From Thermithiobacillus tepidarius DSM 3134 (lineage in GTDB: Bacteria; Pseudomonadota; Gammaproteobacteria; Acidithiobacillales; Thermithiobacillaceae), in NCBI RefSeq assembly GCF_000423825.1, contig NZ_AUIS01000028.1, positions 1 through 32,307 on the forward strand: DNA of 32,307 bases, given 5' to 3'. A program made the position numbers and the translations under genes. The notes under the pieces are model-generated. The model saw only the letters and a program-made list of their open reading frames with translations. It searched no databases and was not told the origin of the DNA. Shown here piece after piece: positions 2,662 to 7,999 of this stretch. Position 1 is the stretch's first letter. Each line of letters opens with the position of its first letter.

Positions 2662-3105
2662 CTACGCCCGCTCCAAGGTCGACGTGCAGTGGGGACAGCG
2701 GCTGGCCGCCAGCGGAATCTTCAGGCGGCAGAAGGGACACTCCTTTTCGGTCGGGGCCGGCGGCGCGGCCTCCTCGCGGGCGCGGACCCGGTGATAGGCC
2801 TGCACCAGCAGAAAGACGGCGAAGGCCACGATCAGGAAGGAAATGACGTTGTTGAGAAACACGCCGTAATTGAGGGTGGCCGCCCCGGCGCGCTTGGCCT
2901 CGGCCAGGGAGGCGTAGTGCGTGCCCGAGAGGCTGATGAAGAGATTGGAGAAATCCACCCCGCCGCTGAGCAGGCCGATGGGCGGCATGAGGATGTCGTC
3001 GACGAAGGATTTGACCACCGAGGTGAACGCGGCGCCGATGACGATGCCTACCGCCAGATCGATCACGTTGCCGCGAGCAATGAACTTGCGAAATTCCTGC
3101 AGCAT
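2662..3105 (-). CDS. mscL: Large-conductance mechanosensitive channel MscL with C-terminal zinc ribbon
   Basis: A 147-residue inner-membrane channel that opens under membrane tension on osmotic downshock. Residues 1-45 match the MscL N-terminus and first membrane helix ([20 protein letters not shown]), and residues about 80-103 form the second helix ([20 protein letters not shown]). After the usual cytoplasmic linker the protein continues into CPFC at 123-126 and CPHC at 137-140, a four-cysteine zinc-ribbon-like tail that E. coli MscL lacks. The ATG at 3105 has GGGAGG seven bases upstream. It is the first gene of a possible pair with the downstream methyltransferase. Confidence 0.93.
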
Positions 3106-6028: not shown

Positions 6029-6454
6029 TCAATCCTCGCGCCGGTACTCCCCCGGCAACGTGTGCGGGCCGCGCGGCGCGTGGCGCGCGGCGAAGGGCCG
6101 CAGCCAGCGCGGCAGCAAGCCGTGCGCCAGGCGCGCGCGCAGGCCGGGCAGCAGCAGCGGCAGGGCAAGCAGATCGCTGACCAGGCCGGGCATGAAGAGC
6201 AGCAGCCCGGCCAGCAGCACCAGCATGCCTTCCAGCAACTCGATGGCGGGCAGCTCGCCCGCCATCAGCCGCCGATAGAGACGGCTCACGGTATCCATGC
6301 CCTGGCGGCGGATCAGCGACACGCCCATCACGAAGCCGAGCAGGATCACGGCCAGCGCCCACAGCACGCCCCAATGGCGGCCCACGGCGATGAGGCTGAA
6401 GAGATCCAGCCCGATCACCGCCACCGCCATCCACACCAGCGCCAGTCTAAACAT
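6029..6454 (-). CDS. fxsA: FxsA family inner-membrane protein
   Basis: A 141-residue hydrophobic protein. It has an N-terminal pair of membrane helices (about 2-20 and 24-45), then the charged FxsA loop with RRQGMDTV, then a long hydrophobic stretch (LLEGMLVLLAGLLLFMPGLV) and a final helix, which is the FxsA pattern. E. coli FxsA is linked to suppression of F-plasmid exclusion of phage T7; its cellular role is unclear. Start ATG 6454 is favoured by AGAGGA upstream; ATG 6463 is the alternative. It overlaps the end of the upstream hydrolase by 8 bases, so the two are translationally coupled. Its position just upstream of groES mirrors E. coli. Confidence 0.88.
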   Translation of the reverse strand: MFRLALVWMAVAVIGLDLFSLIAVGRHWGVLWALAVILLGFVMGVSLIRRQGMDTVSRLYRRLMAGELPAIELLEGMLVLLAGLLLFMPGLVSDLLALPLLLPGLRARLAHGLLPRWLRPFAARHAPRGPHTLPGEYRRED

Positions 6455-7229
6455 GTCTCCCATCCTCTTGCGGCCACAGGGCGTCCACGGCATCCAGCAA
6501 TGTCCGCTCCTGGCCGCTCAGCCGGTGATCCGCACCGGGCAGCACCTCCAGGGTGATATGGGGACTGTCCACGGCTTTTGCAAATGCCTCGCTCACGGCC
6601 ACCGGCACCACCTCGTCGGCGCCGCCGTGCAGGATGCGCACCGGGCAGTGCAGGCTGGGCGGCCAGCGCAGCAGGTCGTAGCGCCAGGCATCCGCGACGA
6701 TGTCGAAGTTGAGGTCGTAGTCGGGACCGCCATAGCGATCCTGGAAGCGGTGCATGCCGCGTCGAGCCCACTCCGCGCGCACCGTTGCCGGCAGCTCGCC
6801 GTACCAGCGCTGCACGAAGTTGAAGCTCGGCGCGAGCAGCAGCATGGCCCGAACCTGCTCGGGCCAACGGCTGGCGGCCAGCACGGCCAGCCAGCCGCCC
6901 AGGCTGGAGCCGACCAGCACGGCGGAGCGCGGAGCGATGAGCTTGAGCAGCAGGCGGACGTCGGCGAGACAGCGGCTCAGGGTGAGTGCCGCGAAGCTGC
7001 CGTCCGACACACCCGTGCCGCGCTGATCGAAACGGATCCAGCTGCGGCCGCGCGCCTGTGCCGTTTGGGCCAGCAGCCGGGCCTTGTTGCCCTGCATGTG
7101 GGAGGCGAAGCCGGGAATGTAGATGCCCACCGTGTCGCCGCGGGTCTCGTGGATGAGGCCGCGCAGGCGTTCGCCGTCGGGGTGGACCAGGGTGAAAGGC
7201 CGTTCGGGAGCGAAGTGCATGGCCGCCAT
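6447..7229 (-). CDS. Alpha/beta hydrolase, ABHD10-like serine esterase/thioesterase
   Basis: A 260-residue alpha/beta hydrolase. The nucleophile elbow is GSSLGG (Ser109), the acid is probably Asp205 (HGGADEVVP) and the base His235 (GADHRL), a complete catalytic triad in the expected order. The segments YIPGFASHMQGNKA, IRFDQRGTGVSDG and LVGSSLGGWL closely recall the ABHD10 group (acyl-protein/acyl-glucuronide esterases), a family-level match only; the bacterial substrate is unknown. Start ATG 7229 or 7220; neither has a strong Shine-Dalgarno. The gene begins only 35 bases downstream of the terminator-like hairpin of repeat copy 1 and overlaps fxsA. Confidence 0.85.
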   Translation of the reverse strand: MAAMHFAPERPFTLVHPDGERLRGLIHETRGDTVGIYIPGFASHMQGNKARLLAQTAQARGRSWIRFDQRGTGVSDGSFAALTLSRCLADVRLLLKLIAPRSAVLVGSSLGGWLAVLAASRWPEQVRAMLLLAPSFNFVQRWYGELPATVRAEWARRGMHRFQDRYGGPDYDLNFDIVADAWRYDLLRWPPSLHCPVRILHGGADEVVPVAVSEAFAKAVDSPHITLEVLPGADHRLSGQERTLLDAVDALWPQEDGRHV

Positions 7230-7263
7230 GATAAGGGCAAGGGAGCGGAAGGGGAAACGCGCA

Positions 7264-7333
7264 ATAAAAAAGGGCGGCAAGGTGATTGCCGCCCCAAACC
7301 ACAAAGGAGGAAAGAAACATGCGCTTGCAACCA
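7264..7333. repeat. 70-bp direct repeat, copy 1
   Basis: Identical over 70 bases to 7499-7568, same orientation, 235 bases apart. Contents in plus order: six As (7266-7271), a 9-bp stem with 5-base loop (7272-7280 with 7286-7294), AAAGGAGGAAAGAAAC, and ATGCGCTTGCAACCA. Similarity continues imperfectly to 7361. A perfect match over both a hairpin and its flanking single-stranded part suggests a recent duplication or strong constraint. Confidence 0.97.
7266..7294 (-). terminator. Rho-independent terminator in repeat copy 1
   Basis: On the minus strand GGGCGGCAA-TCACC-TTGCCGCCC followed by TTTTTT: a 9-bp perfect stem, 5-base loop and U-tract. No conventional protein gene runs leftward into it, which points to a short transcript starting inside the intergenic region. 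Confidence 0.8.
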
Positions 7334-7346
7334 ACCTTGGCTGCTC
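7266..7346 (-). ncRNA. Candidate small RNA (twin B), paralogue of twin A
   Basis: Same architecture as the RNA at 7501-7579. The 5' hairpin is GCAGCC-AAGGUU-GGUUGC (7344-7327), where the stem is kept but the loop differs in sequence and length from the twin. Then come the same anti-Shine-Dalgarno stretch with CCUCC and the same terminator with six Us (7271-7266). Its upstream region (CAGTAA in place of CATAAT) is a weaker promoter. Its terminator lies 35 bases before the hydrolase start, so it may also act as a transcription attenuator for that gene. Confidence 0.38.
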
Positions 7347-7498
7347 ACGTTTACTGAGACCGCAGGCACCCGGAATGGTTCCACGGTCGGAAGAAATTTT
7401 AACGGCGGGGGCGGGAGGGCCGGCAATCAGCCTTCCGGCGGGGTGGGCCGGCGGGCCGAAGGAAACCTTCTGGGCCGGCAGGCATCAAAGCTGCGGAC

Positions 7499-7568
7499 AT
7501 AAAAAAGGGCGGCAAGGTGATTGCCGCCCCAAACCACAAAGGAGGAAAGAAACATGCGCTTGCAACCA
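7499..7568. repeat. 70-bp direct repeat, copy 2
   Basis: Second copy of the element at 7264-7333, identical over 70 bases. The stem lies at 7507-7515 with 7521-7529, and the six As at 7501-7506. Similarity continues imperfectly to 7594. It lies 71 bases upstream of the cutA start. Confidence 0.97.
7501..7529 (-). terminator. Rho-independent terminator in repeat copy 2
   Basis: Identical to the terminator in copy 1 (stem 7507-7515 with 7521-7529, Ts at 7506-7501 on the minus strand). The only annotated gene on its upstream side, cutA, runs the other way. Confidence 0.8.
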
Positions 7569-7579
7569 GATGGCTGCTT
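7501..7579 (-). ncRNA. Candidate small RNA (twin A) with anti-Shine-Dalgarno stretch
   Basis: Read on the minus strand, a possible -10 CATAAT (7591-7586) places a start near 7579. The RNA would begin with a hairpin GCAGCC-AUCU-GGUUGC (7577-7562), continue with an unpaired pyrimidine-rich stretch containing UUUCUUUCCUCCUUUG (about 7552-7537), and end in a 9-bp terminator hairpin (7529-7507) followed by six Us (7506-7501), about 79 nt in all. The 5' stem needs a G-U wobble on this strand but has an A-C mismatch on the plus strand, which favours minus-strand transcription. The -35 is poor. No known sRNA family is recognised. Confidence 0.45.
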
Positions 7580-7639
7580 ACGCCTATTATGACCAGCCCC
7601 CCGCCAAAAAGTTCACCGACAATTTGCAAGGAGCACGTC

Positions 7640-7999
7640 ATGCCCACCAGCACCGATCCGCACGGACCTGGCAACGAGGCTGTTTATCTGGTCTACTGCA
7701 CCTGCCCCACCCGCGCCAAGGCCGAGGAAATCGCCCTGGCCGCGGTGCGGGCCGGGGCGGCGGCCTGCGCGCACCTGCTGCCGGCCGGCCAGTCCTTTTA
7801 CCTTTGGGAAGGCGAGCTGCAGATGGCCGAGGAGCTGACGCTGCTCTTCAAGAGCGCGGCGGCCCGCTACGCGGACCTCGAAGCCCTGATCCGCGCGCTG
7901 CATCCCTATGAGGTGCCGGAGATCCTCGCCGTGCCGGTGGCCGCCGGGCTGCCCGCCTATCTCGACTGGGTCCGGGCCAGCGGGCAGCAATCGGCCTGA
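7640..7999 (+). CDS. cutA: CutA1 divalent-cation tolerance protein
   Basis: A 119-residue member of the CutA1 family, small trimeric ferredoxin-like proteins linked to copper tolerance in E. coli and related in fold to PII. Seen here: YLVYCTCPTRAKAEEIA at the N-terminus, the conserved RAGAAACAHLL with the family cysteine, YLWEGELQMAEEL (usual W-x-G-x-x-x-x-x-E-E core), and HPYEVPEILAVPV near the C-terminus. The ATG at 7640 has AAGGAG seven bases upstream. It is followed by dsbD, 54 bases later on the same strand; cutA-dsbD linkage is also known in E. coli. Confidence 0.96.
   Translation: MPTSTDPHGPGNEAVYLVYCTCPTRAKAEEIALAAVRAGAAACAHLLPAGQSFYLWEGELQMAEELTLLFKSAAARYADLEALIRALHPYEVPEILAVPVAAGLPAYLDWVRASGQQSA

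Follow-up and report, generated by a model that had tools for sequence, protein, structure and literature searches.

Within the 32,307-nucleotide (nt) window analyzed here (contig NZ_AUIS01000028.1 of Thermithiobacillus tepidarius DSM 3134, positions 1 to 32,307), a 70-nt element occurs twice between an alpha/beta hydrolase gene and cutA, which raises the question of what these twin sequences encode. A preliminary description, made from the letters of the window, had suggested two paralogous small RNAs (sRNAs) of the minus strand, each with an exposed anti-Shine-Dalgarno (anti-SD) motif. That suggestion is supported by conservation of the tandem arrangement, by a covarying 5' stem and by the polarity of its G-U pairs, and is further backed by terminators that diverge yet stay paired, a promoter before each copy, and the lack of a conserved open reading frame (ORF) on the plus strand. 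By computation, the two copies are sRNA genes with a defined strand, structure, conservation, promoter boxes and terminators. Missed at first were a sigmaE-type promoter, the order-wide spread of the element, and the place of one copy as leader of the hydrolase gene. The reading considered likely is that the copies are sibling trans-acting sRNAs that block Shine-Dalgarno (SD) sites, the first-transcribed copy (A) acting under envelope stress.

Structure and strand of the twin element

Comparison of both copies confirmed that the element is 100% identical at 7264-7333 and 7499-7568, 235 nt from start to start, and no third full copy was found in the rest of the T. tepidarius genome. The minus-strand reading of each copy is GCAGCC-loop-GGUUGC, then AAGCGCAUGUUUCUUUCCUCCUUUGUGGUUU, a GC stem of 9-10 bp and six Ts, with CUUUCCUCCUUUG lying open between hairpin and terminator. 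This layout, as first described, was borne out by folding, with z-scores against shuffles of -2.8 and -4.2 on the minus strand and -1.6 and -2.1 on the plus strand, and terminator-like sites within 7100-7800 were seen on the minus strand only. The parts of the two copies are listed below, R1 being the covariance model built for the element.

7500..7581, minus strand: sRNA copy A (transcribed first), about 82 nt, with 5' hairpin, anti-SD core and terminator; R1 model 83.1 bits, fold, copy-A orthologue by position
7265..7348, minus strand: sRNA copy B (transcribed second), about 84 nt; R1 model 83.6 bits, fold
7572..7577, minus strand: left arm of the 5' stem, GCAGCC, copy A; fold and stem covariation
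7562..7567, minus strand: right arm of the 5' stem, GGUUGC, copy A; fold and stem covariation
7339..7344, minus strand: left arm of the 5' stem, GCAGCC, copy B; fold and stem covariation
7327..7332, minus strand: right arm of the 5' stem, GGUUGC, copy B; fold and stem covariation
7537..7559, minus strand: conserved core GCGCAUGUUUCUUUCCUCCUUUG including the anti-SD motif CCUCCUUU, copy A; mostly invariant alignment columns, mean unpaired probability 0.89
7302..7324, minus strand: core GCGCAUGUUUCUUUCCUCCUUUG, copy B; alignment columns, unpaired probability
7500..7530, minus strand: intrinsic terminator, copy A (10-bp stem and T run); terminator scan
7265..7295, minus strand: intrinsic terminator, copy B; terminator scan

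The 5' stem is kept in both copies despite differing loops, AUCU in the copy at 7499 and AAGGUU in the copy at 7264, and it is complete only on the minus strand, since one of its pairs is G-U there and a mismatched A-C on the plus strand; both points had been made beforehand and hold. Over 43 distinct sequences (six pairs each, 258 cells), standard pairs occupy 99.6% of cells, four of the pairs show changes in both partners, and none of 500 shuffles or of the slid versions of the alignment reached the observed covariation score. G-U pairs fill 67 of the 258 cells and would become A-C on the opposite strand, which fixes the minus strand as the RNA strand. The terminator arms vary between A and B and among species with pairing kept. 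When A and B were aligned jointly with MAFFT, the terminators came out shifted by one column; counts on this alignment were therefore limited to the 5' stem, and terminator pairing was assessed from folds of individual sequences. The core, GCGCAUGUUUCUU(U)CCUCCUUUG(G)UGG, is near-invariant over the 43 sequences, with a mean unpaired probability of 0.89 in the window pair and its Thermithiobacillaceae relatives, 0.87 in B and 0.67 in A, where the CC and GG of CCUCCUUUGGUGG are able to form a weak hairpin. A U-rich stretch, GUGGUUU(U), followed by the terminator and T run, is present in the aligned rows examined.

Read on the plus strand, the core gives a perfect SD (AAAGGAGGAAAGAAACATG) with a well-spaced ATG in nearly every copy, as a gene for a small protein would have. 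The ORFs that start from the matching ATG nevertheless run from 7 to more than 34 codons with no residues conserved past the start, the terminators and promoter boxes face the opposite way, and the G-U pairs of the stem fit the minus strand only. Because the ATG presented by the core opens no conserved frame, a plus-strand protein was rejected as highly improbable. The preliminary description had named, as a pattern contrary to its reading, relatives in which the stem or terminator is lost and the plus-strand ORF is kept; the opposite was found.

Conservation across Acidithiobacillales

BLAST searches of 57 genomes found the element confined to the order Acidithiobacillales, with Acidithiobacillus and Igneacidithiobacillus among the named relatives that carry it. 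The covariance-model search of related genomes that had been called for was then made with R1 on 31 genomes of the order: 27 contained matches, arranged in tandem in 26, and the family proved to be order-wide with a covarying stem. Three of the four genomes without a match are 61-71% complete; the fourth (G012) is 99% complete and may lack the element, possibly through loss. Since relatives throughout the order retain this pair, the copies are best regarded as members of an order-wide RNA family and not as a chance duplication. Two identical copies within one intergenic region might also be expected of a functionless mobile or repetitive (repetitive extragenic palindromic-like) element. Set against this are the absence of additional full copies in the genome, the same location in the relatives read, and structure and promoter boxes that are under selection; a repetitive element was rejected on synteny and covariation and is scarcely credible.

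In the window and in the sister genome G001, both Thermithiobacillaceae, the two copies are near-identical within each genome and different between genomes, which suggests gene conversion or recent duplication. Copies A and B of the Acidithiobacillaceae have diverged from each other.

Promoters, proposed anti-SD action and the hydrolase leader

The -35 and -10 boxes and spacer by which an RpoE-dependent sRNA can be recognized are present in every Acidithiobacillaceae copy A examined, as GGAACTT, exactly 16 nt and TC(T/C)AA (24 of 24 loci). Over 16 distinct sequences these boxes are invariant except for the T/C position, and the spacer is variable in sequence. Since the RpoE consensus is GGAACTT/TCAAA (PMC12153292, PMC4890791), the copy A promoter in this family fits an RpoE (sigmaE) type by consensus match. 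RpoE itself is encoded once per genome in 30 of the 31 genomes of the order (above the cut-off of TIGR02939 in 29), with rseA after rpoE in the loci read, and Hfq is likewise present in single copy in 30 of 31. Copy B of the Acidithiobacillaceae has TTGnnn-N17-TAATAT in 24 of 24 loci, with GC immediately 5' of the -10 box. The corresponding boxes of the window are as follows, and similar sigmaE-like boxes lie 5' of both copies in the sister genome.

7609..7617, minus strand: sigmaE-like -35 box GGTGAACTT, copy A; sequence, counterpart of the GGAACTT invariant in the 24 Acidithiobacillaceae A copies
7587..7592, minus strand: sigmaE-like -10 box TCATAA, copy A, spacer 16; sequence, position as TC(T/C)AA of relatives
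7376..7382, minus strand: weaker sigmaE-like -35 box GGAACCA, copy B; sequence, same layout in G001
7355..7359, minus strand: -10 box TCTCA, copy B, spacer 16; sequence

In the proposed mechanism, two sibling sRNAs of about 82-84 nt each would be transcribed from the minus strand, copy A by RpoE (sigmaE) RNA polymerase upon envelope stress and copy B, in the Acidithiobacillaceae, by the housekeeping polymerase, doubling there as a terminated hydrolase leader; in the window species both copies carry sigmaE-like boxes. The core is the complement of a complete ribosome-binding site, from the SD through the start codon, and the open stretch GAGCGCAUGUUUCUU(U)CCUCCUUUG after the 5' hairpin can pair with SD regions up to the start codon. 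The U-rich step GUGGUUUU with a U-tailed intrinsic terminator is the usual layout of an Hfq-bound sRNA, and with Hfq also present we infer that the RNAs act in trans, covering the ribosome-binding sites of several messenger RNAs (mRNAs) with its assistance. The likely effect of the pair is a reduced output of many proteins when the cell is stressed.

Several results weigh against this reading, beginning with its promoter. The sigmaE-like boxes of Thermithiobacillus are weaker than those of Acidithiobacillaceae copy A. A search for GGAACTT-N15/16-TCNAA in 10 Acidithiobacillaceae genomes returned 13 sites, 10 at copy A (in 10 of 10 genomes) and 3 elsewhere, a total not above that of a reversed-pattern control (15); the argument for function thus lies in the shared position at copy A and not in the count. 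No sigmaE-type box was found upstream of rpoE in the loci read; autoregulation of rpoE through a GGAACTT-type box was accordingly rejected, and the sigma factor is assigned by consensus alone. The missing box at rpoE, together with the rarity of the pattern and its control-level total, would suit a different account, in which the pair is real and GGAACTT-N16-TCTAA of copy A serves a housekeeping or other extracytoplasmic function promoter. Yet both half-sites are conserved over 24 loci despite the variable spacer, the boxes match the published RpoE consensus, and each genome has one TIGR02939 protein, so a promoter of another kind, while conceivable, seems unlikely.

A second group of objections concerns targets. 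The target prediction recommended in the preliminary description gave a mixed outcome: the cores favor start regions, and no cross-genus target emerged. In a 400-kb sample of one relative's genome, the mean duplex energy of core A was -18.5 kcal/mol at start regions, -16.3 in gene interiors and -16.8 (standard deviation 0.16) for shuffled cores, and that of core B was -16.6, -14.1 and -15.3, respectively; the starts were picked partly by their SD, a bias by which these energies show consistency, not proof. With G-U-tolerant patterns, no single target conserved across genera was found in 12 genomes, and pattern matches beyond the sRNA genes were scattered at about the level of a reversed-pattern control. 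Matches anchored at start codons were few and none was common across genera, so that these candidates were set aside. With no shared target and a core complementary to ribosome-binding sites, the RNAs are proposed to act on a set of mRNAs by a general anti-SD mechanism.

The remaining objection comes from the gene neighborhood, in which the pair is flanked by the following genes.

6447..7229, minus strand: alpha/beta hydrolase gene (ATG at 7229), downstream of the pair; weak matches to several hydrolase families, syntenic in the relatives read
7640..7999, plus strand: cutA, divergent, on the other flank of the pair; NF007930 and NF041095, below cut-offs with clear E-values

In the window, cutA-dsbD forms one flank and the hydrolase gene, fxsA and groES-groEL the other. 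The pair sits 5' of the alpha/beta hydrolase gene in the genomes read; several Acidithiobacillus species have dsbD on the opposite flank and groES-groEL after the hydrolase gene, and the pair stays before the hydrolase gene even where dsbD/cutA and groESL are not adjacent. It had been stated that no protein gene runs into the terminators, and this is right, as cutA is divergent and the hydrolase gene starts downstream. One correction applies to the copy at 7264. Between the terminator end of this copy (B) and the hydrolase start lie only about 36 nt in the window and 9-20 nt in the Acidithiobacillaceae loci parsed. A gap of 9-20 nt is too short for another promoter, so transcription of the hydrolase gene must pass through B or A, and copy B is predicted to double as a terminated leader of the hydrolase gene.

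Lying within a gene leader, copy B possibly has a role in cis, and this is the main rival to action in trans: B, and A before it, would primarily form a terminated leader that attenuates the hydrolase gene and any chaperone genes behind it, with the short RNA as a by-product. The required read-through and the adjacency that persists without dsbD/cutA or groESL nearby are what such a leader would lead one to expect. Copy A, on the other hand, is equipped with a separate promoter and terminator and is not directly followed by a gene, yet its core is almost that of B. This core is complementary to SD regions generally, the terminators vary freely in arms and loop, and inspection of the rows, which was not exhaustive, showed no alternative pairing common to all of them that could open the terminator. 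A primarily cis function is therefore judged improbable, and blocking of SD sites in trans is preferred.

In Acidithiobacillaceae loci (e.g. L028 and L016), a palindrome, CCGACCGGTCGG, lies between the A terminator and the -35 box of B, close to the 5' side of that box. Since this or a near motif is also found 5' of efflux-type genes (L211, L213 and L214), it looks like a TetR-type operator.

Relation to known and other anti-SD RNAs

No Rfam 15 family matched the window element at its gathering score, in line with the earlier remark that it belongs to no recognized family. The best weak matches are SorY (RF02651, 28.4 bits against a gathering score of 111) and suhB/mmgR (RF00519, 25.7 against 41), alphaproteobacterial RNAs of similar layout with CCUCC before the terminator and from another bacterial class. 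Nearest by design are NmsRA/NmsRB of Neisseria (RcoF2/RcoF1, NgncR_162/163; RF02877), tandem siblings of similar size that likewise run from a hairpin through an open UC-rich anti-SD stretch to a terminator, and that are reported to block the SD regions of several mRNAs, as tested by mutation (PMC5362039). The window copies score 21.4 and 19.7 bits against that family's gathering score of 52. The Neisseria RNAs have two anti-SD regions, one of them in a loop (stem-loop 2), whereas the window copies have one CCUCC each, open or in a weak CC/GG hairpin; the Neisseria RNAs have promoters of sigma70 type and a link to RelA, with no mention of RpoE in the paper (PMC5362039), and their locus lies near lrp. 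The Betaproteobacteria toxic small RNA (RF02278), or "double-hairpin RNAs" ncS03/05/27/62 of Burkholderia, are also short, with CU-rich open regions complementary to ribosome-binding sites and a terminator, and ncS27 in excess slows growth (PMC5688073). Those RNAs are scattered over the genome, not in tandem, and no hit of RF02278 to 7200-7650 was obtained up to E 5, so that its 50-bit gathering score is not reached. With MicA, RybB and SlrA of Escherichia coli, which are RpoE-regulated, Hfq-dependent repressors of translation (PMC4651636), copy A would share sigmaE control. Their targets are mostly outer-membrane proteins reached through specific seeds, in contrast to the general anti-SD core here, and the window element matched none of their Rfam families.

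No paper on this pair was found in the literature searched, although older Acidithiobacillus sRNA surveys could mention it. The pair adds a defined, order-wide set of sRNAs in acidophilic and thermophilic sulfur oxidizers, a group with hardly any sRNA work in that literature, and the promoter would tie one copy (A) to envelope stress. It opens to experiment the questions of whether anti-SD siblings recur as a design throughout the proteobacteria (Neisseria, Burkholderia, Acidithiobacillales and the rplM-linked RNAs of gammaproteobacteria described below) and whether a stress sigma factor uses an anti-SD RNA to turn down translation widely.

Outside the order, R1 matched 48 of 369 genomes at E <=0.01 per genome, against a chance expectation of about 4, the E-values of this model being rough. 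Sixteen of these loci were read and contain RNAs with ATCCTCCTTTGGTGGTT and a terminator, most with an extra CTCC just 5' and many with a TTGACA-like promoter; a common origin with the window pair is possible, the likeness being limited to some 16 letters plus a terminator. A single-copy anti-SD RNA (CTCCTCCATCCTCCTTTGGTGGTTT and terminator, TTGACA-like promoter) lies directly 5' of rplM in several gammaproteobacterial families (L077, L079, L080, L083 and L086), four more loci (L084, L088, L090 and L091) probably hold the same RNA by context, and two further loci have an OsmC-family gene on the opposite flank. At a low Rfam threshold, the one rplM-linked RNA tested (L091) had RF02278 as its best match, at 33.5 bits against a gathering score of 50, and is nearer to that family than the window pair is; the rplM-linked RNAs possibly represent a widespread undescribed sRNA or an rplM leader. 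More speculatively, one locus might couple envelope stress, a global translation brake (a general anti-SD RNA driven by the sigma factor) and chaperone supply through the hydrolase-leader sibling, often with groESL behind it, within a wider gammaproteobacterial anti-SD set that includes the RNA upstream of rplM-rpsI; we regard this as a doubtful extension.

A third anti-SD RNA of the Thermithiobacillaceae (TTCCTTCCTCCTTTGGTGGTTT and terminator) was observed at L003:1500-1585 (G000:C39:8389-8474, minus strand) and in the sister genome at G001:C7:141151-141226 (plus strand; L111). It adjoins a MauG-type cytochrome peroxidase gene, and the sole Porin_4 gene found is 3-4 kb away. Porin_4 genes were considered as targets of the sRNA pair and set aside: of 12 genomes searched, the two from Thermithiobacillaceae alone contain them. 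Tandem R1 matches outside the order were seen in one genome of family f69 (G330:C107:2412-2486 and 2692-2766, plus strand), 280 nt apart.
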